A DNA stretch of 40,144 nucleotides from a virus: IMG/VR virus record IMGVR_UViG_3300034072_002251, positions 1-40,144 of that record, one strand, 5' to 3'. Position numbers and translations under genes: made by a program. The notes below the pieces were generated by a model. That model was not told where the DNA came from and searched no databases. It saw nothing but the letters and a program-made list of their open reading frames with translations. This document shows positions 292 through 16,355 of the stretch, piece after piece. Position 1 is the first letter of the stretch. Each line of letters starts with the position of its first letter.

Positions 292-590
292 CAGAAGTCC
301 CGGCGGTCGCGCGAGAAGGCGTCTTTCAGGTTCGGCATGATGTTGAACGGGCCGCCCCGCATCATCTGCGAGCGGAGCTCCCTCAGTGTTTCAAGCTCCA
401 TCCGGTGGATCACGACGGAATCGGACTTCAGGAAGGCTTGTCTGAGTTCCTCATAGGCCTGCTGCCGGCAGCGATCGGCGATGAACTCACGCATCACCGC
501 CATCACAATTGAAGCAAAAGCCGTCGCTTCTAAATGCTTCTGTTGGTCCTCGATGTACTGCTGGCTCGGGGTTGCTTTCTCGTCAGTCAT
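291..590 (-). CDS. Hypothetical protein (99 aa), integrase operon
   Basis: No family is recognised. The product is soluble and mostly helical in appearance, with charged repeats such as ELETLRELRSQMM near the C-terminus and no membrane segment. It overlaps the 3' end of the integrase gene by 8 bases and the start of the next leftward gene by one base, which indicates translational coupling within the leftward operon. A role in integration or excision is only suggested by position. Confidence 0.7.
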   Translation of the reverse strand: MTDEKATPSQQYIEDQQKHLEATAFASIVMAVMREFIADRCRQQAYEELRQAFLKSDSVVIHRMELETLRELRSQMMRGGPFNIMPNLKDAFSRDRRDF

Positions 591-1788
591 TCTCTTCCTC
601 CTTGCCCAGGCTTGGGCCTTCGTACCACTCGACGAGTTTGGCCATGGCGTTGTCGGCCATCTCGGCGTTGGTGGCGAGATAGTGTTTCAGGATCCCGGTG
701 GCGCTGGCGAAGGTGTGGCCGGTGATGGCGCAGATCTCGGGGATGGTGCAGCCGGCCATGGCGAGCCAGGTGACGGCCGTATCGCGCAGGTCCTGGTCGC
801 GCAGGCCTTTAAGGCTCGGCATGGTCTTCGCGGCCGCGCGCCTGACGTCGTCGAAAAGGTGGCGGTAGTAATCCTCCTTGAAGGGTTCCCAGCAACGCTC
901 GTTGAGGATCACGAAAGGCGAGATGATCTCGGCCGTCTTGCGGCGCTCGAGGGAGGCCTCGAGGCGGCGGCGCAGCTCGGGTGCCTCGGGCATCGAGACG
1001 ATGGCGCGGGTCTTCTCCTGGCGGAGCTTGATGCGGCCGCCGGCGCGGTTGAGGAGGGAGAGTACCAGGCGATCCTGCTGGCGCTGTCCGGACCAGACGG
1101 CAAGCGTGATCATGTCGCCGACCTCGGGCCGGCCGAGGCTATCGGCCATGCCGACGAAGTGGGCGACCTCCTCTTTGGTCGCAAACCGGACGCGGGGCGG
1201 CGGCGACTTCATCTTGAGCTTGTGGGCCGGGTTGATCAGCATCGAGGGCAGGCGGCCGCGATCCATGCCCCATTGCAGGCCGATTCCGAGAATGCGCAGC
1301 GAGCCATTGGCCGAATGAAGGCCGACCTTGATCCGCAGCTTGTCGTAAAGGCCGAGGCAGATCGGCTTGTCCAGCGCTTCCGCCGGCGAATGCCAGATGT
1401 CAGGAGCATGCGCCTCGACCGTTTCCAGGCGCTGGCGGTAGTAGCGCAGCGTGTTGGGGCGCAGATCCGCGATATCAGGGTTTTCTGTCGGGTTCAGCCA
1501 GTCGCGCATCAGGCCGGCGACGGACAGGATATTACGCGTGTGTGCCGGCCTCGCCGCTGCCACCTTCGGGCGGCCGCGACGCGGCTTTGCCCGGGCGCTG
1601 GCGAGCTCGCGGGCAAAGTCTGATGACCACAGGCGGGCCTGCGCTTCCGTCATCCATTCGCCATCAGGCGATTTCAGATCCCTGCCGTCATAGCCCATGG
1701 TGCGCAGGGTCGGAGACGGCGTGAAGCGCGGTCGCCCGCGCCTCCAGGTGATGTAAGGGATTTTGGGTTCGGTGGGTTTAGCCGGCAT
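583..1788 (-). CDS. int: Tyrosine-family phage integrase
   Basis: Site-specific recombinase (401 aa) that would join phage attP to the host tRNA-Lys attB and, with a directionality factor, excise the prophage. The N-terminal 1-80 region is basic (WRRGRPRF, RRGRPK) and fits arm-site DNA binding. Residues 85-190 form a core-binding domain and 200-401 the catalytic domain: Arg236 (WSGQR), a Lys near 259, Arg335 (DLRD), His358 (ITGHT) and nucleophile Tyr370 (LKHYLA). The first His of the HxxR box is Gln332. The ATG at 1788 was preferred over upstream starts because GGAGG precedes it and longer forms would run through the ASCH gene. It lies next to attL, as usual. Confidence 0.95.
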   Translation of the reverse strand: MPAKPTEPKIPYITWRRGRPRFTPSPTLRTMGYDGRDLKSPDGEWMTEAQARLWSSDFARELASARAKPRRGRPKVAAARPAHTRNILSVAGLMRDWLNPTENPDIADLRPNTLRYYRQRLETVEAHAPDIWHSPAEALDKPICLGLYDKLRIKVGLHSANGSLRILGIGLQWGMDRGRLPSMLINPAHKLKMKSPPPRVRFATKEEVAHFVGMADSLGRPEVGDMITLAVWSGQRQQDRLVLSLLNRAGGRIKLRQEKTRAIVSMPEAPELRRRLEASLERRKTAEIISPFVILNERCWEPFKEDYYRHLFDDVRRAAAKTMPSLKGLRDQDLRDTAVTWLAMAGCTIPEICAITGHTFASATGILKHYLATNAEMADNAMAKLVEWYEGPSLGKEEEND

Positions 1789-2257
1789 AGACGCCTCCCA
1801 TTTTTTTTCGCCAGTCGAAGAAACCCAGCGCGCCTGGGCATTGTATGAATTCGATCGGCTGCTGGTTCGCGAGCACAAAGCCAAACTTGCCCACGAACCA
1901 CTCGCTGTCGCTGCGATCGACACAATCGACCACCTCGGCAATCCCTACGATGCCGCCGCGTTTATTATGCCACGCCGGCGCGCTCCAAGTGTCGAACATC
2001 CTATTGCTGCTGATTAGGCGCTGACCGGTGTCAATGGTGATGTTCCGACCGGTCACTGGATGGTGCGCACCGTCGCTGTAGGTCAGACACATGGCGCAAT
2101 CCTCGTCGAGTTTTTTGCCGGCATGGATTGCAACAGGGCCACGAAACTTTGTGGCCCAATCACGGTTCTCGATATCCTTGTGCCTGTTGACGATCAGCCA
2201 GGCCCAAGGCTGCATGACGGAGATTGCCATAGCTGGCACGTCCGGACGAAAAGTCAT
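1778..2257 (-). CDS. ASCH-domain protein
   Basis: A 159-aa protein with an N-terminal ASCH-type signature: ISVMQPWAWLIVNRHKDIENRDW (residues about 12-34) followed by FRGPVAIHAGKKLD. ASCH is a PUA-like beta-barrel fold, known or predicted to bind RNA or modified nucleotides and frequent in phages; a specific substrate is not evident. The C-terminal half carries GGIVGIAEVVDCV and GFVLANQQPIEF, both typical of the fold. The ATG at 2257 overlaps the Xre stop (ATGA) and has GGAGG upstream. Its 3' end overlaps the integrase start by 11 bases, so it is translated from the same message as the integrase. Confidence 0.85.
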   Translation of the reverse strand: MTFRPDVPAMAISVMQPWAWLIVNRHKDIENRDWATKFRGPVAIHAGKKLDEDCAMCLTYSDGAHHPVTGRNITIDTGQRLISSNRMFDTWSAPAWHNKRGGIVGIAEVVDCVDRSDSEWFVGKFGFVLANQQPIEFIQCPGALGFFDWRKKMGGVYAG

Positions 2258-4977: not shown

Positions 4978-5096
4978 GCGCATACTGTACGCAGCGTGGA
5001 GGCCCATGTTCAAAACTCAATACAGCTATTGACAATGCAAACCAAATCACACCTTCATTTGCAAAATCAAGACATATTTGCAAATCAGGTGACGAA
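4978..5096. promoter_or_regulatory. Repressor/Cro-like divergent promoter and operators (OR-like)
   Basis: The divergent gap holds TGCAAA at 5036-5041, TTTGCAAA at 5058-5065 and TTTGCAAA at 5077-5084; the last is the centre of the palindrome ATTTGCAAAT. A TTGACA at 5029-5034 is a plausible -35 for the rightward promoter, with a weak -10 near 5053. The operators would lie over and just downstream of this promoter, fitting repression by the 4366-4977 product and by the Cro-like protein. The same box occurs at 4033-4150. Confidence 0.75.
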
Positions 5097-5342
5097 ATGC
5101 AGCGCTTTGAGGACATTGACGCACGTCGTGCGCGTCTCGGCATAACTCAGCGGGATCTCTGCAGGGCCGCCGACGTCAACGCATCCACCTATAGCCGCTG
5201 CAAGGAAGATGGCTACCAGCCGACACAACGGATTCTGCGCAAGCTTTCGAAGGCACTCGACAAGTTGATGCTGGCAAAGCGCGACGAGGTGAAAGCGCTG
5301 TCGCGCGAGCTCGACGCCCTGGCCGGAGAGGCTGCCGAATGA
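5097..5342 (+). CDS. Cro-like HTH protein (81 aa)
   Basis: First gene of the rightward early operon. Residues 5-50 (IDARRARLGITQRDLCRAAD, then NASTYSRCKEDGYQPTQRIL) are a helix-turn-helix of Xre/Cro type; the C-terminus is a charged helix. Position opposite the repressor suggests it shuts off repressor synthesis or tunes early transcription. The ATG at 5097 has AGGTGA close upstream; a longer reading from 4971 would run through the operators and start inside the repressor gene, so it was rejected. The stop overlaps the next start (ATGA). Confidence 0.85.
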   Translation: MQRFEDIDARRARLGITQRDLCRAADVNASTYSRCKEDGYQPTQRILRKLSKALDKLMLAKRDEVKALSRELDALAGEAAE

Positions 5343-5611
5343 GCGAGCAGACGATCCTCATGATGACCGGCGTATTGCCCGAATTCCCAGAGCTCCGCCG
5401 CCAGCACTTCGAATGGATGATCGAGGATCTGAACCGCGAGGCCGGCCGCATGGGCTGGGAGGGCGCGGACTTCATCAAATACGGCCTGGCCGGTGGATGG
5501 GCGTTGATGGAGGTCAAGCGCGGCAGTCGCTCGCTCACGATGGAACGGCTGACAGCATTTCGAGACGAAGAGCGGCGACGCCGCGAAGAGGAAGAAAGGC
5601 AGGTGGCGTGA
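5339..5611 (+). CDS. Hypothetical protein (90 aa), early operon
   Basis: No family is recognised. A central segment rich in aromatic and glycine residues (MGWEGADFIKYGLAGGWALM) is followed by a very charged tail (RDEERRRREEEERQ) likely to be a single helix. No membrane segment. The start overlaps the Cro-like stop and the stop overlaps the next start, so it belongs to the early rightward operon. Confidence 0.75.
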   Translation: MSEQTILMMTGVLPEFPELRRQHFEWMIEDLNREAGRMGWEGADFIKYGLAGGWALMEVKRGSRSLTMERLTAFRDEERRRREEEERQVA

Positions 5612-6114
5612 TGCGGCCCAAGATTAGCGACGTCGAGTTGGCGCAATGGGCCGAGCAGCGCGCGGATGACGCCGGGCACCTGGCGCGCGAGTTGATCCTG
5701 TATCGCCAAGCGGGCACCCCACCGCCCTCAACGCATGTGCTGCCTATCGAGCTTAACGGCGTGTCCGCCGCTCTCGATAACGGCAAGGGCCTCTGGCGCA
5801 CCTGCACCGGTTGCCATGAAAGTAACGAAGGCTTCCCGACCGGACCATACAGCACGGTCATGAAGTGCCACCTTGGCGGCGGTTGCTTCGAGTGCGGGGG
5901 CATCGGCGCGATCTGGGACACGACCGACTATGAAGACATGGGAAACGCGCTCGCAGAGCAGGCCATCGCGGAAGCCAAGCAGCCGGATCACCGGCATGAT
6001 TTCGTTCCCCACAAGAAATACCCGTGGTTCTGCGCCTGCTGCGGATATGCGCCTCATGAGCCCCTGAAACACTTCCAGCCGACTGCCACCACGGAGGGCA
6101 AGGACAATGCGTGA
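5611..6114 (+). CDS. Probable zinc-binding protein (167 aa)
   Basis: Unknown function. Cysteine pairs suggest zinc sites: C65-x2-C68, C86 with C92-x2-C95 (the CFECGG part resembles a zinc ribbon), and a C-terminal C141-A-C143-C144 knuckle next to a His-rich stretch (DHRHDFVPH). These are visible in the sequence; metal binding is inferred. The ATG at 5611 overlaps the previous stop (TGATG). It lies just before the exonuclease gene, overlapping it by 8 bases. Confidence 0.75.
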   Translation: MRPKISDVELAQWAEQRADDAGHLARELILYRQAGTPPPSTHVLPIELNGVSAALDNGKGLWRTCTGCHESNEGFPTGPYSTVMKCHLGGGCFECGGIGAIWDTTDYEDMGNALAEQAIAEAKQPDHRHDFVPHKKYPWFCACCGYAPHEPLKHFQPTATTEGKDNA

Positions 6115-6658
6115 CCTGATGATTGACATCGAAACGTTGGGCAGCCGTCCAAGCAGCGTCATCCTGAGCATCGGTGCCGTCTATTTCGATGCGGAGACTG
6201 GCGAGCTTGGCAAAGAGTTCTATGCCGCAATCAAGCCTTCATCGTGCATCGAGGCGGGCCTCACGACCGATATCGACACAATGCTCTGGTGGATGAAACA
6301 ATCGACAGAGGCGCAGGATGCTGCGTTCTCGGGCGATCGCTTCCTTGCCGGCGTCCTCGGGGAGTTCGGTCTGTTTGCGGTTGCCGGCAGTCCGGCCCGC
6401 GTATGGGCAAAGCCGCCGTCGTTTGACCTTGTCCTTCTGGAAGCTGCAATGAGGGCATGCAAGCTGTCACCTCCGTGGCATTTTCGAACGCATCGAGACT
6501 GCCGGACACTGTTCGATATCACGGGGGTATCGCAGCCAACCGTGGGCGTGGCTCACAACGCGCTGGACGATGCAAAGGCTCAGGCAGCGGGTGTGATTGA
6601 GGCGTATCGCTTGCTGGCTAACACCCCATCGCCTCAGCCGAGGGAGGCTGGTCAATGA
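6107..6658 (+). CDS. 3'-5' exonuclease, DEDDh type
   Basis: Predicted nuclease (183 aa) of the RNase T/exonuclease superfamily, closest in pattern to the phage 'exoribonuclease VIII-like / Rv2179c-like' group. Motifs: Exo I DIET (Asp7, Glu9), Exo II around SFDLVLLE (Asp107) and Exo III AHNALDDAKAQA (His150, Asp155), which give the five DEDDh residues. It could trim DNA or RNA during replication, recombination or host takeover; the substrate is not evident. The start overlaps the upstream gene by 8 bases and the stop overlaps the next start (ATGA). Confidence 0.88.
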   Translation: MRDLMIDIETLGSRPSSVILSIGAVYFDAETGELGKEFYAAIKPSSCIEAGLTTDIDTMLWWMKQSTEAQDAAFSGDRFLAGVLGEFGLFAVAGSPARVWAKPPSFDLVLLEAAMRACKLSPPWHFRTHRDCRTLFDITGVSQPTVGVAHNALDDAKAQAAGVIEAYRLLANTPSPQPREAGQ

Positions 6659-6996
6659 CCCTGTCCCTCGTCGAAGAGATCGAACAGCTCGCCAATTGCC
6701 GGACGCATCAGGACTGCGCCCGGTGGCTGCTGACCTGCCCGCTGTCCAAGCTCATGACCTACGAGATGACGATCAAGAACAGGCTGCGCGAGCGCGGCTT
6801 TCTGGTCGGGGTCGAGTATCTGGATCACCAGCTGCGCATGCTGAGGGCGCCCTGCCGCGACGGGCATATGTTGCTGCCGCCCGAGGGCGACAACGTCAAC
6901 ACGATCTGGGACCTGATGCTTGATATCGCGCGGGGCACCCTCGTCGAAGACAACCAGCCTTTCCCGCCTGTCTGCGGGGAGGGCGAGGCGATCTGA
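6655..6996 (+). CDS. Hypothetical protein (113 aa)
   Basis: No family is recognised. An N-terminal helical part (SLVEEIEQLANCRTHQDC) contains two Cys, followed by a mixed segment and an acidic tail. No membrane segment or signal peptide. Coupled by ATGA to the exonuclease gene. A 56-bp gap follows before the HTH protein gene. Confidence 0.75.
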   Translation: MTLSLVEEIEQLANCRTHQDCARWLLTCPLSKLMTYEMTIKNRLRERGFLVGVEYLDHQLRMLRAPCRDGHMLLPPEGDNVNTIWDLMLDIARGTLVEDNQPFPPVCGEGEAI

Positions 6997-7052
6997 TTTT
7001 CCCCTCTCTGCCGGTTTGTATTGCGTACGGCCCTGATGTTTCGAGGCTGTTG

Positions 7053-7562
7053 ATGGATTTGACTGCGATTTTCGACGAGATCAAGCGCCGCAAGATCAGC
7101 GCCAGCGATGTGGAGCGGGTCGCCGGCTTCGGTCGCTGCCACCTGTACCAGCTGCGCATCGGTCGCCGCTCGATGTCACGAGACACCGAAGTGCGGATCA
7201 AGCTGGCGATCGCGCGGATCCAGCGCGGCGATCGGCATCATGACGGGCAGCAGGCGGCGGCCGCCTATCGCATGGCGCTGGCAACTGTCGCCCGGAAGAT
7301 GGGCGCAGATCCGCGCCTGGTGCTCGATGCCGATCCTTCCAAGCGCGCAACGGCAGACCCTATCTGGCTGCAGGCGGCCAAGGTACGCCGCGTCGCCCTC
7401 TACATCGCCAATGTCTATCTGAACGTGCCGCAGGCCGAGCTCGCGCGAGCCGCCGGCATGAGCAAGGCGGCCGTGTCGATCGCCATGAACGAAGTCGAAG
7501 AGATGCGCGACACGGAAGAGCTCGAGCTGCTGCTCGCGCCGATCGAGGAGGCGTTTGCGTGA
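7053..7562 (+). CDS. HTH protein with a DnaA domain IV-like C-terminus (169 aa)
   Basis: The first 45 residues form a possible HTH (SASDVERVAGFGRCHLYQL). The C-terminal part (VRRVALYIANVYLNVPQAEL, then AGMSKAAVSIAMNEVEEMRD) follows the pattern of the DnaA DNA-binding domain: an 'R-x-x-A-x-Y-x-A' helix, then an HTH and a 'V/A-x-x-A-x-x-x-V-E' helix. A role in origin recognition fits the neighbouring methyltransferase and primase genes, but transcription control is equally possible. The start is the ATG at 7053 next to an in-frame TTG at 7050. Its stop overlaps the GTG start of the next gene. Confidence 0.75.
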   Translation: MDLTAIFDEIKRRKISASDVERVAGFGRCHLYQLRIGRRSMSRDTEVRIKLAIARIQRGDRHHDGQQAAAAYRMALATVARKMGADPRLVLDADPSKRATADPIWLQAAKVRRVALYIANVYLNVPQAELARAAGMSKAAVSIAMNEVEEMRDTEELELLLAPIEEAFA

Positions 7563-8290
7563 GCCAGAACACCAGCACGGCCGTCATGCAGCGCCGATCG
7601 GAGCCGTCCGACAGCCTCGACGACTTTCCGACGCCGCCCTGGGCGACGCGGGCGCTGGTCGAGCATGTGATTTTTCCCTATGCCTATGATGCTGAAATGA
7701 TCGCCCAGTCGCTGGCCTGGGATCCGACGTGCAATCGCGGCTTCATGGCGCGGCCGTTGATGGAATATTTCGGCAACGTTCGGGTGTCTGACATTGCGCA
7801 TTATGGCTATGCCGGCCAGCGCGGAACGGTAGACTTTCTCTCGCCCGTCGCCGAGGCCACGATCGGCGATGATATCGACTGGCTGATCACAAACCCGCCC
7901 TTCCGGCTGGCCGAGAAGTTCATCGCCAAGTCGCTGCGCCTGCAGCTCCGGGGCTTTGCCCTGTTGATGCGCACCTCCTTCCTTGAGGGCGGCGGCCGGC
8001 ATGATCGGCTTTTTTCCCGATGGTCGCCGACGATCGTCGCGCAGTTTTCCGAACGCGTGGTGATGCACAAGGGCAAGATCGTCGATCCCAATGTGCCGGT
8101 GCGCACCTTCGACAAGAAGCGCGGCAAATGGATGATGAAAAAGCCGAGCTCGGCCACCTCTTACATGTGGTTCGTCTGGCTCAAACGCGCGGCGCTTCGC
8201 CCTGGTGAAGCGAAACTGGTGTGGATCCCGCCATGTCGCGAGCAGCTTGAGCGGCCGGGCGATTATGCGCCGATCGGAGGTCGGCCATGA
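7559..8290 (+). CDS. DNA N6-adenine-type methyltransferase (243 aa)
   Basis: Predicted SAM-dependent DNA methyltransferase. Catalytic motif IV is NPPF (112-115, in DWLITNPPF), typical of amino-methyltransferases acting on adenine. A likely SAM-binding motif is DPTCNRG (55-61). The PTPPWATRALVEHV start is often seen in phage enzymes of this type. No restriction endonuclease lies nearby, so the likely role is to modify phage DNA against restriction or to mark replication; the recognition site is unknown. The GTG start overlaps the previous stop. Confidence 0.88.
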   Translation: MSQNTSTAVMQRRSEPSDSLDDFPTPPWATRALVEHVIFPYAYDAEMIAQSLAWDPTCNRGFMARPLMEYFGNVRVSDIAHYGYAGQRGTVDFLSPVAEATIGDDIDWLITNPPFRLAEKFIAKSLRLQLRGFALLMRTSFLEGGGRHDRLFSRWSPTIVAQFSERVVMHKGKIVDPNVPVRTFDKKRGKWMMKKPSSATSYMWFVWLKRAALRPGEAKLVWIPPCREQLERPGDYAPIGGRP

Positions 8291-9411: not shown

Positions 9412-9776
9412 TGCGGATCAAGAAGGGGGACGGAAAAGGAAACGAGCAGCTGTTCGTCAGTGTGGTCGATGGAAAGCTGCAGATCTCGATTGGGATCGCG
9501 CTGCTCGCATTTGCGGTTCAGGCGCCCGACGGCGCTGGCTGGCCGGAAGATTGGCATATCAATGACATCAACAAATTCGCCGCCAGTATGGCGCGGCAGC
9601 TGCGACGTGAAAGCGAGAACGGCACAACGCCGGTGCATCGCATGTTTGACGCTGCTGCGATCGAAGTGCTCGAGCAAGGCGAAGACGGTGTCGATGAAGG
9701 CTCTGTCGAGATCGGCATAAAGCTCGCCCAGGACTTTCTGGGGCCGACGCATCGCGCCGAGGCGGCCAAGCCATGA
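9408..9776 (+). CDS. Hypothetical protein (122 aa)
   Basis: No family is recognised. An N-terminal basic part is followed by a short hydrophobic stretch ([15 protein letters not shown]) too short and mixed for a clear membrane span, then a helical acidic C-terminal half ([19 protein letters not shown]). Two consecutive ATG codons at 9408 and 9411 are possible starts. It overlaps both neighbours (ATGA). Confidence 0.7.
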
Positions 9777-10054
9777 CTGATATCGGCCACAACTCCACCA
9801 TTCACGGCATCGCGCGCGACCAGCTGCGCGCCTTCGTCGAGCGCATCGAGCGCACCAACGAAGAGCTCAAGTGTCTGAACGACGACAAGAAAGACATCTA
9901 CGGCGAAGCGAAGTCGATGGGGTTCGACACCAAGATCCTCAAGAAGCTGATCGCGCGCCGGGCCAAGGATCCGCAGGAGCGGATGGAAGAGGATCTCATC
10001 CTCGAAACCTACGAACGCGCCCTCGAGGAGAGCGACGACGGCTCGCAGGACTAA
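9773..10054 (+). CDS. gapR: GapR-like DNA-binding protein (DUF2312)
   Basis: The 93-aa product matches the GapR/DUF2312 family in length and sequence pattern: [20 protein letters not shown], then [20 protein letters not shown]. In Caulobacter, GapR is a nucleoid-associated protein that binds overtwisted, AT-rich DNA ahead of replication and supports topoisomerase function. A phage copy beside primase and methyltransferase genes may serve phage DNA replication or act on host chromosome structure. The family match is confident; the phage role is inferred. The ATG overlaps the previous stop. Confidence 0.92.
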
Positions 10055-11333: not shown

Positions 11334-11360
11334 TGGTTCCCAGCAAACGAGGATGAGACG

Positions 11361-11597
11361 ATGAACGACCAAACCCACGTGCCCAGCACCAGCGACCAGC
11401 GCACCGCCAACAACACGCCGCGCCATACCTACCGCGTCCTGTCGGACGAAGAGAAAGCCCGCATGCAGGCGATCAAGGACAAGGGGCAGGAGCTTCTCGA
11501 CCTGATCGCCGACGCGGGCAACAGCCGCGAGCTGTCGATCGCGCGCACCAAAACGGAAGAGGCGGTCATGTGGGCCGTCAAGCATGTGACGGCCTGA
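11361..11597 (+). CDS. acb2: Acb2/Tad1-family anti-defence protein (78 aa)
   Basis: The C-terminal 55 residues (YRVLSDEEKARMQAIKDKGQ, then SRELSIARTKTEEAVMWAVK) match the Acb2/Tad1 family as I know it. In characterised phages, Acb2 sequesters cyclic di- and trinucleotide signals of CBASS immunity, and the related Tad1 sequesters the Thoeris signal gcADPR; both act in the cytoplasm of the infected cell. The first 20 residues are a polar extension. The ATG at 11361 is preceded by AGGATGAGA. The frame is open back to 11217, adding 48 residues with a hydrophobic stretch. The Tad2-domain gene follows after 2 bases. The family call is firm, the ligand unknown. Confidence 0.88.
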   Translation: MNDQTHVPSTSDQRTANNTPRHTYRVLSDEEKARMQAIKDKGQELLDLIADAGNSRELSIARTKTEEAVMWAVKHVTA

Positions 11598-11599
11598 CG

Positions 11600-12136
11600 A
11601 TGGAAACGCAAATGCAACAGTATTTCGGCACCAAGATGGTCGCCGCCCGGCCGATGACGCGCGCGGCCTATAACGACTTTCGCGGCTGGCAGTTGCCGGC
11701 CGACGAGAACGGAGCCGACGAGGGCTATCTCGTCGAGTATCAAGACGGCGGCGCCGGCAACCATCCGGATCATGAGGGCTATATCAGCTGGTCGCCAAAA
11801 GAGCAGTTTGAAAAGGCCTATCAGGATTTCTCGCAGCTGAGCTTTGGCCACGCGATCGACGCGCTCAAAACTGGTTTCCGCCTGCGCCGGGCCGGCTGGA
11901 ACGGCAAGGGCATGTATATCTGGCTCGAGGATGGGAGTTTCGCTCGCAGCGACGACCTCGCCGAGATGCCGCAGCTGATCAGCGGCGTCGACGGCCGGCT
12001 TTTCGAGCCGGGCGACGCCGGCACCATCACACGCATGCCGCATCTTTGCATGCGCGCAGCTGACGGCTCCACCGTGACGGGCTGGCTGGCCAGCCAGACC
12101 GACATGCTGGCCGAGGACTGGCAGATCGTCGAGTGA
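11600..12136 (+). CDS. tad2: Tad2-domain (DUF2829) anti-Thoeris-type protein with an extra N-terminal domain
   Basis: The C-terminal domain (about 80-178) carries the DUF2829/Tad2 pattern: SFGHAIDALKTGFRLRRAGW, NGKGMYIWLED, then MPHLCMRAADG and SQTDMLAEDWQIV. Tad2 of phage SPO1 is a sponge for Thoeris-derived signals. Residues 7-75 (YFGTKMVAARPMTRAAYNDF, NHPDHEGYISWSPKEQFEKA) form a second domain that I know from other phage small proteins but cannot assign a function. SPO1 Tad2 is about half this length (from memory). It lies directly after the Acb2-like gene, so the two are likely co-expressed early. The ATG at 11600 was chosen; MQQYF at 11612 is an alternative. Confidence 0.87.
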   Translation: METQMQQYFGTKMVAARPMTRAAYNDFRGWQLPADENGADEGYLVEYQDGGAGNHPDHEGYISWSPKEQFEKAYQDFSQLSFGHAIDALKTGFRLRRAGWNGKGMYIWLEDGSFARSDDLAEMPQLISGVDGRLFEPGDAGTITRMPHLCMRAADGSTVTGWLASQTDMLAEDWQIVE

Positions 12137-12147
12137 ACGACCCATGA

Positions 12148-12173
12148 CCGGGCGGGGCCACCCCCTGCCCGGG
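12148..12173 (+). other. GC-rich hairpin between the Tad2 and ATPase genes
   Basis: CCGGGCGGGG and CCCC(CT)GCCCGG can pair with a short bulge, giving about a 10-bp stem. It lies in the 64-bp gap between 12136 and 12201. No T-run follows, so a processing or pausing role is more likely than termination. Confidence 0.45.
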
Positions 12174-12200
12174 TGATGCAATGCGATATGCGCGGGTGCC

Positions 12201-14126
12201 ATGAAGAAGACGAAAGCAGTACAGGGCGGAGTTGCCGGGATCCGTGCGCATTTTCAGGACGCGATGGCGATTCTGAATGATGCGAAGGCGATCGAGGATC
12301 CGGACCCGAATAAGCCGCGCAACGGGATCAAGCCCGGCCAGTGGGACGGCGCGCCGCATGACCGCATGCCGCCGGATTGCCCGGTGACCGTGCTCGGCAA
12401 AAAGGGCGATGCGGTCTATGTGATCTCGGCGATCGGCGAGATGCACGAGGTCACACGCTGGGACCTGCCGACGCTGACCAGCCTTTTCGCACCCTATGTG
12501 AACTATCTGTTCTGGGCCTGGCCGGCATTCGGCAAGGCCGAGCAGGACCCGGAGACGGGCGAGGCGCTGCCGCCCAAGGTCAAGCGCGTGGAGCGCGACA
12601 AAGCAGCCATGGCTCTGATTGCCGAAGCCGGCCGCAAGGGCATCTTTGATCCGCAGAGCAATGTGCGCGGCCGTGGCGGCTGGAAGGCACAGGACAAGTT
12701 CATCTGGCACAATGGCAAGATGCTGTTTTCCGTCGACGTGAAGACGGAAGCCAAAAGCGGACGCGCCCAGGCATGGAACCTGCAGGCGACCAGGCCCGGC
12801 GAATTCGACGGCTATTTCTACGCCCAGGACAGCGAGATCCTGTCGCCCTGGCGCGAGCCTGTCGGTTATCTCGACAGCCCGGCGCATCAAATCCTGCAGG
12901 ATTTGAAAAGCTGGAAATGGGAGCGGCCGACGCTCGACCCGGTCTTGTTCCTCGGCTGGCTGATGAGCGCCTATCTCTCCGGCGCGTTGGAGGTCCGGCC
13001 TATCCTCTTTACCACCGGCGGCGCCGGAACGGGCAAATCGACGCTGCATGGCATTGTGCGCGCGCTGCTCGGATCCGCGCTCTATTCCACAGCCAACACC
13101 ACGGCCGCCGGCATCTATCAGAACATCCGCCAGGACAGCCGGCCGGTCGCGGTCGACGAGTTCGAGCGCAAGGCCGGCGGCACCAAGGAACAGGCGATCG
13201 TCGAGCTCGCCCGCCAGGCCTATTCCGGCGCCAAGGGTTATCGAGGCGGTGCCAATGGCGACGGCACGGAATTCGAGCTGCGCTCAAGCTTCATGTTTTC
13301 CGCCATCCTGCATCCTCACCTCGGCGTGCAGGACCGCACCCGCATGGTGATCCTGAACCTCAACCCGCTGGACAAGAACGGAGCTTCCGAGCAGCCGATC
13401 ATCAAGGAAGAATGGGGGCGGATGCTGCTGCGCCAGGTGATGGACGGCTGGCACGATCTCAATACCTTCGTACTGCCGAAGTGGCGCCGGATCCTGTCCT
13501 CGTCGCGGCTGGCCTTCGATGCCCGCGCGATTGACACCTATGGCACGGTGCTGGCCTGCGCAGAGCTCGCCGTGGGCGAGCTCGGCCTTGTCCAGGCGGG
13601 CTTTCCCTCCTTGGCACCTGGCAGCGCTGAGCTCGATGCCGATTGCCTGGTCGACCTGATCGCGTTCGCGACCGCCGAGGAGCGGGCGGCCCAGATGCCG
13701 AAGTGGCAGGAGGTGATCGAGAAGGTCATGTCTGCGACGCTCGAAATGTATGTCGCCGGACGGAAACCGAGCGTGGGTGAAACGGTCGGCCACCTCGAGC
13801 AGGGGACGGATCTGCTGGATCTGCGCGAGGCGCGCGCCAGGCTTGCCATGATGGGGCTGGGCCTTCGCGACAAGGGCAAGCCCGGGCAGGGCTATTGCCT
13901 GGCGATTCCGAAGAACGACGACAAGCTGAACCGGCTATTCTACGATGGCGAGTTCAACCATGGCGGCTGGACTATGGCGCTAAAACAGGCGCCCGATTCG
14001 ATCGTGCTGCGCGGGCTGGAACGGAAGTTCACCAATGTGGATATCAACCGCCTGACAAAAGACTGCCTGCTGGTGGACCTCGCTGGCTATGATGCGTGGA
14101 CCGGACGGGGCGACGTAGAGGCTTAG
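12201..14126 (+). CDS. Replicative P-loop ATPase/helicase (641 aa)
   Basis: Predicted phage replication ATPase. Walker A is GGAGTGKST (273-281) and a Walker B is RPVAVDEFE (314-322). The general plan, with an N-terminal ~240-residue region followed by an AAA/SF3-like ATPase and a C-terminal helical part, resembles the DUF927/DUF5906-type helicase-like proteins that accompany Toprim primases. It probably unwinds DNA at the phage origin; direct helicase activity is not shown by the sequence. It stands after the GC hairpin, and the ATG at 12201 has no strong ribosome-binding site (GCGCGGGTGCC upstream). Confidence 0.85.
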   Translation: MKKTKAVQGGVAGIRAHFQDAMAILNDAKAIEDPDPNKPRNGIKPGQWDGAPHDRMPPDCPVTVLGKKGDAVYVISAIGEMHEVTRWDLPTLTSLFAPYVNYLFWAWPAFGKAEQDPETGEALPPKVKRVERDKAAMALIAEAGRKGIFDPQSNVRGRGGWKAQDKFIWHNGKMLFSVDVKTEAKSGRAQAWNLQATRPGEFDGYFYAQDSEILSPWREPVGYLDSPAHQILQDLKSWKWERPTLDPVLFLGWLMSAYLSGALEVRPILFTTGGAGTGKSTLHGIVRALLGSALYSTANTTAAGIYQNIRQDSRPVAVDEFERKAGGTKEQAIVELARQAYSGAKGYRGGANGDGTEFELRSSFMFSAILHPHLGVQDRTRMVILNLNPLDKNGASEQPIIKEEWGRMLLRQVMDGWHDLNTFVLPKWRRILSSSRLAFDARAIDTYGTVLACAELAVGELGLVQAGFPSLAPGSAELDADCLVDLIAFATAEERAAQMPKWQEVIEKVMSATLEMYVAGRKPSVGETVGHLEQGTDLLDLREARARLAMMGLGLRDKGKPGQGYCLAIPKNDDKLNRLFYDGEFNHGGWTMALKQAPDSIVLRGLERKFTNVDINRLTKDCLLVDLAGYDAWTGRGDVEA

Positions 14127-14161
14127 CCTACCCCCTTGCCCGCGCCCTGGTGCAGCGCTAG

Positions 14162-14407
14162 ATGCCCTTCATGAGCATCCACCCACCCGGCAAGCCCCTC
14201 GACCATCCCGACCGCTTCCTCGACTGCCAGCAGGCACTTGAGCCGGCATTCCAGAACGTGGTGGAGCGCGCCACGGCAGCCGGCTGGGAAGAAGTCGAAG
14301 TTGTCGCGGCACTCGTGACACTGGCGGATCACCACATGTTGGCCCGGGGCGAAAACATTGCCCTCGACGAATTGCTAGCCGATCTGCGCCGGCGGTTGGG
14401 CCGATGA
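14162..14407 (+). CDS. Hypothetical protein (81 aa)
   Basis: No characterised family. The N-terminus (MSIHPPGKPLDHPDRFLDCQ) followed by a helical body looks like a small protein found often in rhizobial phages and chromosomes, but I could not check this. Starts at 14162 and 14171 are both possible. The stop overlaps the next start (ATGA). Confidence 0.75.
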   Translation: MPFMSIHPPGKPLDHPDRFLDCQQALEPAFQNVVERATAAGWEEVEVVAALVTLADHHMLARGENIALDELLADLRRRLGR

Positions 14408-14676
14408 CTGTTATCGTCATGCCCGACGGGCGGCGTTTCAGGCCCGTGCAGTGGCACGACGCACATATCCGCACCATTCCGCACCATACCACCGCCGTCG
14501 CATCCTGCCGCGCCTGTGGCAGCTTGCGCGAGATCCCGGCCGAGGTGATCCGCACTGATGCAAACAGCTCGCGCAGCATTAGCCAAGCGGCGGCCCGGCT
14601 GCGCTGCTCGAGCTGCGGGGCACGCGATGCGGATCTTATGTTCGGAGATTATGGAGGCGAGCCGCCGGCGCTGTAA
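14404..14676 (+). CDS. Small zinc-ribbon-like protein (90 aa)
   Basis: Two CxxC pairs (CRACGS in the middle, CSSCGA near the C-terminus) separated by about 33 residues form a candidate zinc ribbon, with a basic N-terminal part rich in His. Such a fold may bind nucleic acid. It is the last gene of the rightward early operon. Its 3' end overlaps the convergent HTH gene by 28 bases. Confidence 0.75.
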   Translation: MTVIVMPDGRRFRPVQWHDAHIRTIPHHTTAVASCRACGSLREIPAEVIRTDANSSRSISQAAARLRCSSCGARDADLMFGDYGGEPPAL

Positions 14677-14940: not shown

Positions 14941-14982
14941 CGAAAGCCGGGCGCTGGCAAAACCGCCCGGCTTTCGCTTTTT
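14941..14982 (+). terminator. Intrinsic terminator of the rightward early operon
   Basis: On the plus strand a perfect 13-bp stem (CGAAAGCCGGGCG 14941-14953 with CGCCCGGCTTTCG 14964-14976) and a 10-nt loop are followed by CTTTTT. It would stop rightward transcripts arriving from 14676 before they reach the ArdC gene. On the minus strand no T-run follows the stem. Confidence 0.88.
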
Positions 14983-15961
14983 AGAATGCAAAGGCCAGCT
15001 GTGAAGCCTTGCCGGCCGGCGCTGCAGCGATCGCGGCCGATCGTTCCTGCAGGAAGGTTTCCAGCGGTTCCGCTGCAGCCTTGAGCGCCCGCTCGCGGAT
15101 GAAGTCAAGCACCTTTTGTGCCTCCGATGCTGCCCGATAGAATGCGCGGCTGTCGCCCTTGAGCACCTTGATCCAGCTGGCAATGTATTCCGGATGCTGG
15201 AGGTTACCGGCGACGCCGAATTCCATGCATAGGAACGCGGCCGACAGCTCGGCGACCAGTTCCTCGAATGCATAGGCGTTGTCACCGAAGCGCTTGCCGA
15301 AAGTCCGGTTCAGGCGCTTTTCATGTCCCGTCGAGTGGGCGAATTCGTGAAAAGCGGTCGCCTTGTAATGCCCGATCGTGCTGAAAGCCTCCGGCGCCGG
15401 CATGCGGACAAAATCTTGCATCGGCTGGTAGAAAGCCCGATCGCCGCCATGCTGCAGGGCAACGCCGATCACGTCAGCAAGCTCGGCGACGTCGCCGGGG
15501 ATCTCTGAGGGCTTGGCGATCGCAGAAGTGTCGAGCTCGATGCCGGCGACCTGGTCGATGTTGAAGACGGTATAGGCCTTGATGATGAAGTGTTCGACCT
15601 TGCCATTCTCATTGACGCGGCCGCGCTCTTCGTCGGTCTTGGGCTCGCGCTCGATCTTCGACATGAAATAAACCTGCTCGCCCTTCGACCCCTTGATGAC
15701 AGAGCCGCCGGCTGCCTTGATCTGCTTGAACGTTGCGAAGGCCGGCACCTGCCAACCGTTATCGATGCAAACGCAATAGAGCATGATCGTATTTACGCCT
15801 CGGTATGCCGATTCCGTCGTGAAATTGAACGGCATGGACGCGATCGGCGCGCCGGCCGACTTCCAGGGGCGAACCCAGGCGGCGACACCCTTCTCGAGGT
15901 CGGCGAGGATCTTGTCGGTGATGCGCTGATAGGGGGAAACGGTCTCGATCTTCTTGGTCAT
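14981..15961 (-). CDS. ardC: ArdC-type antirestriction protein (326 aa)
   Basis: Two-domain protein of the ArdC family. The N-terminal half (about 8-135) has the ssDNA-binding-type region (YQRITDKILADLEKGVAAWV, AYRGVNTIMLYCV, GSKGEQVYFMSKIE). The C-terminal half is a zincin metallopeptidase-like domain with HEFAHSTGH (205-213) and a downstream acid EELVAE (Glu238). ArdC proteins on plasmids and phages bind single-stranded DNA and protect incoming DNA from type I restriction. The ATG at 15961 has AGGA 11 bases upstream; the longer reading to 16069 would cover the operator and was rejected. It is transcribed from its own leftward promoter. Confidence 0.92.
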   Translation of the reverse strand: MTKKIETVSPYQRITDKILADLEKGVAAWVRPWKSAGAPIASMPFNFTTESAYRGVNTIMLYCVCIDNGWQVPAFATFKQIKAAGGSVIKGSKGEQVYFMSKIEREPKTDEERGRVNENGKVEHFIIKAYTVFNIDQVAGIELDTSAIAKPSEIPGDVAELADVIGVALQHGGDRAFYQPMQDFVRMPAPEAFSTIGHYKATAFHEFAHSTGHEKRLNRTFGKRFGDNAYAFEELVAELSAAFLCMEFGVAGNLQHPEYIASWIKVLKGDSRAFYRAASEAQKVLDFIRERALKAAAEPLETFLQERSAAIAAAPAGKASQLAFAF

Positions 15962-16018
15962 TGGAGGATTCCTTTTCGTGAGGTTGCCACCGGCTGGCAT
16001 CCGGTGTTGAGTTATTAA

Positions 16019-16062
16019 ATACCGAATAATTCGGTATATGTCAATCCCATATACCGAATTAT
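16019..16062. promoter_or_regulatory. Palindromic operator upstream of ardC
   Basis: ATACCGAATAATTCGGTAT (16019-16037) is a perfect palindrome with 8-bp arms. A second ATACCGAA at 16051-16058 has a degenerate partner. The AT-rich surroundings contain the likely ardC promoter. The pair of sites, 32 bp apart, is a plausible target of the small HTH protein encoded by the last gene of the operon. The stretch 16063-16355 shows no convincing gene; it holds a CTCTTCCCCC/GGGGGGAGAG hairpin (16133-16159). Confidence 0.75.
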
Positions 16063-16355
16063 TTTGCATTTAATTTCTTCGATACCCTCGCCCTGGTCGT
16101 CTCTCAAGTCGATCGCCGCGCCTCCCATTTAACTCTTCCCCCGCCCCGAGGGGGGAGAGAAAGCGGAGCCCGCGCCACGTTGGCGATGGCCGCAGGGGAG
16201 CCATGACACCCCAAGACAGGCCGAGACCTGCGGCATTCGAGCGCCGGTGCGTGAAAAGGCGCGGGCACTTAACGCAGCCGAGGCCGTGTGCAGGATGCCG
16301 GTGGCGGCGATTGCGGCCTGCCATCCGGGTGCGGGTGGTGTCAGTCTCTCCGGTC

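Follow-up and report, generated by a model that had tools for sequence, protein, structure and literature searches.

An Acb2-type gene adjoining a Tad2-fusion gene in a temperate phage: a predicted pair of immune-signal sponges

The gene pair and its genomic setting

The window analyzed here is the whole of a viral IMG/VR record of 40,144 bases, in which a search recovered exactly one match to the Acb2/Tad1 family and one to the Tad2 family. Both fall in a pair of ORFs of 78 and 178 codons, at 11361-11597 and 11600-12136 on the plus strand, confirming the two adjacent co-directional genes, 2 bases apart, reported in a first-pass annotation of the sequence: the TGA stop of acb2 occupies positions 11595-11597 and the ATG of tad2 lies at 11600. 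The features of the locus are:

11361-11597, plus strand: acb2-like gene, 78 aa, of Acb2-type architecture (PF24729, model, PDB fold matches)
11600-12136, plus strand: tad2-fusion gene, 178 aa, or 174 aa from ATG 11612 (PF11195, phrog_872, model)
11612-11824, plus strand: N-terminal domain of the tad2-fusion, conserved, without Pfam or PDB match
11837-12133, plus strand: Tad2-like domain (PF11195, phmmer, Foldseek)
11599-12133, plus strand: segment missing from the sister sequence L011, a gene-sized indel with flanks about 90% identical (blastn)
12201-14126, plus strand: primase/helicase-like replication protein, 3' of the pair (phrog_35358 DNA primase, E 4e-36)

Since most homologues of protein 2 begin at the equivalent residue, the true start of the tad2-fusion may be the ATG at 11612, in which case the spacing would be 14 bases and the protein 174 aa long. 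Neither protein was matched in NCBIfam. A 257-aa minus-strand ORF running across the pair (11429-12202) was dismissed as a shadow ORF of GC-rich DNA.

Genes around the pair encode a Toprim primase, a GapR-like protein and a second primase/helicase, and it is this position beside replication genes that suggests the early expression previously ascribed to the pair. An integrase gene (586-1941, minus strand), together with a related prophage of Rhizobium cremeum (L171), supports the temperate lifestyle that had been proposed. The description of the phage as rhizobial fits the data but falls short of proof for the window phage itself, and Rhizobiaceae are taken here as its likely host family. The GapR-like DNA-binding protein (9773-10054, plus strand, DUF2312, E 1e-26) is of a kind common among rhizobial phages. 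Also present in the early region is a gene for an Rv2179c-like 3'-5' exoribonuclease (6107-6658, plus strand, PF16473, E 2e-46).

The first gene encodes an Acb2-type hairpin protein

Protein 1 matches the Acb2_Tad1_hairpin family (PF24729) with an E-value of 3.9e-21 and 75.4 bits, against a curated cut-off of 27, far exceeding a chance match. The gene evolves under purifying selection, its codons differing from those of the sister L011 by 14 synonymous and 5 non-synonymous substitutions. In an alignment of 38 sequences, with relatives 47-94% identical, residues L27, K39, E57, A61, E66, A68, M70-V73 and T77 are invariant, and R21, Y24, R56 and K64 are kept in at least 90% of the sequences.

The family profile of protein 1 reaches T4 Vs.4 (7uq2), Acb2 p26 (8h2j, 8ixz) and "Acb2 homolog 43" (9ptq), with Tad1 as a weaker match; the similarity to solved Acb2 is weak at the sequence level (profile E 3e-4). 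The comparable pocket residues are kept: Y24, K39, R56 and T63 of protein 1 align with Y11, K26, R67 and T74 of Acb2 (8h2j), and Y24 and T63 also with Y8 and T68 of T4 Acb2, the pocket residue numbers of protein 1 and Acb2 having been counted off printed alignments. We take K26 of Acb2 to be a pocket position beside Y11, and R67 to belong, with T74, to a second site. In T4 Acb2, mutant Y8A does not bind and T68M has lower affinity (PMC12657230).

The predicted structure (pLDDT 85) consists of a short helix (H14-18) followed by two long antiparallel helices (H29-52 and H56-77), the arrangement published for Acb2 (PMC12043709). The top PDB folds recovered with Foldseek were T4 Vs.4 (7uq2) and Acb2 (8h2x and 8h2j), followed by Tad1, with probabilities of 0.98-1.00 and, for this small helical model, poor E-values of 0.1-1. 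Protein 1 shares with Acb2 (T4 Vs.4, 7uq2; Pseudomonas phage Acb2, 8h2j) the N-terminal short helix, the helical hairpin and the PF24729 domain, but its inter-helix loop is far shorter, the overall sequence similarity is weak and its C-terminal SRELSxAxTKxEEAVMWAVKHxTA is nearer to Tad1 than to classic Acb2. With Tad1 (7uav, 8smd) it has in common the same Pfam domain and the SRE...EEAxMW hairpin motif, SRELSIARTKTEEAVMW in protein 1 being close to SRENACALTHVEEALMW in Tad1. However, the N-terminal antiparallel beta-sheet domain of Tad1 (beta1-beta4) has no counterpart in the model, which contains no strands and leaves residues 1-13 unstructured, and a plain Tad1 was rejected because this beta-domain is missing. 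Protein 1 is best described, from its sequence and predicted fold, as having Acb2 architecture with a Tad1-like hairpin motif.

An Acb2-like gene of 53% identity occurs in Sinorhizobium phage Aussie (L003, 3001-3237), where it lies inside the head-to-tail structural genes, outside the early region.

The second gene encodes a Tad2 domain fused to an N-terminal domain

Protein 2 matches the Tad2-like family (PF11195) far above chance (E 2.3e-23, 82.9 bits, cut-off 25), over residues 81-177 only, whereas its full length matches phrog_872 (E 5e-60), a PHROG that carries no assigned function. Both family assignments of the first-pass annotation are thus upheld, and structure prediction, which it had proposed as a check, agrees with them, models and PDB searches converging on Acb2-type and Tad2 folds. 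The outcomes that it had named as refuting, absence of a family match or loss of the pocket residues in both proteins, did not occur: both profiles match, and those pocket residues that can be compared are conserved. Its term "Tad2 gene" holds for the domain and not for a plain Tad2, as protein 2 is a two-domain fusion in which a complete Tad2 domain (residues 79-178; model pLDDT 87) is preceded by a further domain that had escaped its notice.

By phmmer the Tad2 domain is closest to SptTad2 (E 3.5e-20) and HgmTad2/AcrIIA7 (1e-19), followed by Myroides and SPO1 Tad2 (4-6e-12). Foldseek gives the same order (SptTad2 44% identity, HgmTad2 about 40%, SPO1 and Myroides Tad2 about 33%), the best structural match being SptTad2 8wjd, solved with cGG (E 6e-9, TM 0.79 by target length). 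The likeness to SptTad2 (8wjd), HgmTad2/AcrIIA7 (8kbi-m) and SPO1 Tad2 (8smf) covers the full Tad2-like domain, at 44-33% identity, and includes the WNGKGM and DMLAEDW motifs; protein 2 differs in bearing about 75 additional residues in front, and its ligands are predicted ones. In length (100 aa) the domain resembles the long-insertion members SptTad2 (about 100) and HgmTad2 (104) rather than SPO1 Tad2 (about 89), the model of the beta2-beta5 insertion itself being of low confidence (pLDDT about 51-55). The long beta2-beta5 insertion of Tad2 carries the dinucleotide site, and both SptTad2 and HgmTad2 bind cyclic dinucleotides (PMC12043709). Protein 2 therefore appears, by sequence and model, nearest to the Tad2 proteins that bind cyclic dinucleotides, and anti-Thoeris activity is just one option for it.

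The deposited entries of HgmTad2 bear the names AcrIIA7 or "Inhibitor of Type II CRISPR-Cas system", protein 2 resembles HgmTad2 in sequence and fold, and E. coli phages contain homologues with the annotation "anti-CRISPR protein", so a role mainly as an anti-CRISPR of AcrIIA7 type deserves mention. Such a role is very improbable, given that the solved structures of the family hold cyclic nucleotides or cADPR, that residues lining the Tad2 fold are invariant and that the genes linked to the family are other nucleotide sponges (see below) and not acr/aca genes.

The N-terminal domain recurs in other sponge families

The N-terminal domain (N-domain; residues 1-77, about 75 residues, pLDDT >90 over most of them) is characterized by the motif GTK...RGW.LPADE...GYLVEY.DGG...GYISWSPK..FE.AY, with G10, K12, A16, P33, G42, V45, Y47, G60-Y61, S63-W64, P66, F70 and Y74 invariant in 20 sequences. 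Searched alone, it returned nothing from Pfam beyond weak Tudor, tail-tip and BldD noise, and no credible match among PDB sequences. In the best 80 IMG/VR loci recovered with the N-domain as query, 67 proteins combine it with Tad2 and 13 have another composition.

Pfam analysis of 20 N-domain proteins without Tad2 identified crAss001_48 in 11, Acb2_Tad1_hairpin in 3 and Phage_gp49_66 in 2. The last of these (PF13876) is the Acb4 sponge family, some homologues of which were mentioned, without explanation, to bear extra extensions (PMC11722364). N-domain and Acb4 are fused in L240, L310, crAssphage C0521BD4, Achromobacter phage Axy13, which has in addition a crAss001_48-like tail (judged by eye), and Rhizobium phage RHph_X2_28B (L435, 2177-2713), where the order is reversed, Acb4 coming first and the N-domain last. 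Fusions to the Acb2/Tad1 hairpin are found in L302, L410 and L418, with matches close to the family cut-off (best E 5e-6). In Pseudomonas phage HHBS14_1 the N-domain is free-standing, as a protein of 73 residues.

A fourth sponge-family partner is the RyR domain (PF02026), which follows the N-domain in Pectobacterium phages Nepra (L437, 1492-2040) and phiA41 (L438, 1492-2040). In Nepra gp73 residues 125-171 match ryanodine receptor structures (E 6e-18) and the N-domain matches the profile with 27 bits. A protein of Yersinia phage TG1 annotated as RyR also emerged from a fold search, its 32% identity over 72 aligned columns being consistent with an N-domain. Phage RyR proteins (RyDEP) cleave or sequester cADPR signals, and the isolated RyR domain of a homologue from a Pectobacterium phage acts as a sponge in the nanomolar range (PMC13232231). 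The likeness of protein 2 to these proteins is confined to the N-domain, as the window contains no RyR domain.

The N-domain is thus joined, by these matches, to four experimentally defined sponge families (Tad2, Acb4, Acb2/Tad1 hairpin and RyR/RyDEP) and families without known function. The latter comprise crAss001_48 (PF21825, function not known), in L300, L289, L274, L233, L243 and others, and the partners in L247, L293, L351 and L360; the domain that L247, L351 and L360 share as partner has neither a name nor a Pfam match and contains the motif DYAWAWHCNIAM...ANEGAARFMQLLAGVD. Because it is also fused to such families, the N-domain may be a generic phage module. We put forward, tentatively and as the less probable reading, that it is instead a general "sponge-associated" module, occurring with four unrelated sponge families, in either order and also alone, whose role would be to bind an immune signal directly or to bring several sponge heads together in a single particle; crAss001_48, its most frequent other partner, would then be an unrecognized sponge family, and pairs of Tad2 fusions with Acb4 or Acb2 would serve as counter-defence cassettes against more than one signal. 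A search of open-licence papers brought up no earlier account of this shared domain or of sponge genes lying side by side.

Tad2-fusion genes frequently adjoin another sponge gene

In order to evaluate the linkage of the fusion family, 102 of its loci (non-redundant at 85% identity) were surveyed and their 148 immediate neighbour genes compared with Pfam. The commonest neighbour family is PF13876/Acb4 (21), followed by PF24729/Acb2-Tad1 (5); Tad2 is itself the neighbour in 2 of the 102 loci, behind an N-domain-crAss001_48 gene. Neighbouring genes mostly overlap by 4 bases, as do the N-domain-crAss001_48 gene and the Tad2 gene that follows it in L300 and L289. Among 34 loci with at least 4 kb per side, 9 of the 12 Acb4 matches and all 3 Acb2 matches within 5 kb were immediate neighbours.

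Acb2 adjoins the fusion in at least five separate settings, namely the window, enterobacterial-type prophages with tad2 first (L103, L117 and L161), and L266, L295 and L229 with acb2 first. When the enterobacterial-type tad2-acb2 pair was used as query against 5,426 E. coli genomes, the whole pair was found in none and the N-domain/Tad2 part in 42. A parallel in a standard laboratory phage is found in Escherichia phage N4 (L308, NC_008720, 33632-34485), in which gp48 (Acb4) and gp49 (N-domain plus Tad2) overlap by one base. As in the window, a Tad2 fusion with the same N-domain has another sponge gene immediately 5' of it; the differences are that the partner is Acb4 (PF13876) rather than Acb2 and that N4 is lytic. 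N4 gp48 is an active Acb4 (PMC12657230). Phages with at least two signal-disrupting genes are already known, namely SPO1 with Acb4 and Tad2, and T4 with Acb1 and Acb2 (PMC11722364, PMC12657230). A paper of 2026 describes a Tad2 from a rhizobiophage (PMC13299392).

The pair in the window is young or labile

Comparison by blastn of the window with the sister L011 aligned positions 11346-11598 with 4986-5238 and positions 12134-14669 with 5235-7766, the flanks being 89-92% identical, so that exactly the tad2 gene is missing from the sister. The more distant Rhizobium cremeum prophage has acb2 without tad2, another small ORF occupying that place, and in L037 an N-domain/Tad2 gene lies 1.3 kb upstream of acb2. 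The pair in the window is hence young or labile; the simplest reading is a gain of tad2 in the window, the alternative a loss in L011. Since close relatives of this Acb2 are widespread without Tad2, which occurs in 1 of 50 records of phages carrying a close Acb2, Acb2 is the resident gene in this clade and tad2 the newcomer. The joint unit proposed in the first-pass annotation is borne out as an adjacency, and not as a fixed unit.

These observations, the sister without tad2, the separated genes of L037 and the rarity of Tad2 near close Acb2 relatives, are what would be expected if two unrelated small early accessory genes had been brought together by phage mosaicism, with no joint function. 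The initial co-occurrence counts, obtained with close homologues and Pfam cut-offs (the 1/50 given above, and 3/50), understated the linkage because only Acb2 was sought, while the main neighbour is Acb4. Against a chance neighbourhood, roughly one in four non-redundant loci of the fusion family have Acb4 or Acb2 as the adjoining gene, far above what position alone would give, while 1.5 Mb around Acb2 genes, mostly alphaproteobacterial, contained one Acb4 and one Tad2. A second control, 16 loci anchored on the GapR-like DUF2312, contained no Tad2, no Acb4 and one Acb2; seeding with crAss001_48 and N4 Acb4 gave 3 and 5 loci, too few for statistics. We consider a purely fortuitous neighbourhood doubtful, and it bears on the joint function of the genes, not on the function of each.

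Proposed function and significance

Judging from family membership and predicted folds, both proteins very probably soak up bacterial immune alarm signals. The comparisons above establish the families, folds, pocket positions, fusion, linkage and indel, whereas what the proteins bind, how they assemble, what the N-domain does, when the genes are expressed and which host defences they block is inferred. The explanation that we favour, and hold to be probable, is that the two genes work as a counter-defence unit in a temperate phage of Alphaproteobacteria, encoding two sponges whose ligand ranges differ in part, with an accessory domain on the second. The Acb2-type sponge would form oligomers and sequester cyclic di- and trinucleotides, keeping CBASS effectors inactive, and the Tad2-type sponge probably binds cyclic dinucleotides plus (glyco)cyclic-ADP-ribose signals. 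The N-domain, a module found in several phage sponge families that are unrelated to one another, most likely either promotes assembly or provides another surface for signal binding. As to origin, tad2 would have been acquired next to acb2, or else deleted in the sister, which matches the wider habit of Tad2 fusions of adjoining another sponge gene.

Whether both defences are targeted was considered in the light of their occurrence in Rhizobiaceae genomes, where 10 of 81 had the CBASS cyclase marker SMODS above its cut-off, as against 1 of 81 for the type I Thoeris marker STALD, other Thoeris types lying outside this count. In this presumed host family, nucleotide CBASS is therefore the likelier everyday target as compared with type I Thoeris. 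Taken further, these counts, and the proximity of the Tad2 domain to HgmTad2 and the cGG-bound SptTad2, members whose long insertion carries a dinucleotide site (PMC12043709), could mean that CBASS alone is targeted, Acb2 taking di- and trinucleotides and Tad2 binding cGAMP, cGG or similar dinucleotides, and that the anti-Thoeris label is inapplicable in this host range. This restriction seems unlikely, as HgmTad2 also binds cADPR isomers and Thoeris types that combine TIR with other effectors fall outside the count in a host family that is itself presumed. Being a narrower version of the favoured explanation, it overlaps with it, and the confidence placed in the two does not sum to one. The straight division into one anti-CBASS and one anti-Thoeris gene, as first proposed, is thus not established, while the sponge families were correctly named; overall, that earlier interpretation is partly supported.

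The two-gene unit is of moderate interest, the sponges themselves being new members of known families, and the N-domain is the more interesting lead. What reaches further is the architecture, namely an unnamed domain linking four sponge families and a recurrent adjacency of sponge genes that extends to the laboratory phage N4. If this architecture holds, the domain would offer a way into the search for further immune-signal sponges among uncharacterized phage proteins, crAss001_48 first, and N4 gp48-gp49 would make the cassette idea directly testable.

A gene for an ArdC-type anti-restriction protein (14981-16069, minus strand; ArdcN and MPTase-PolyVal domains, PHROG anti-restriction) is located 2.8 kb downstream of the pair, as a predicted third counter-defence gene of the region.
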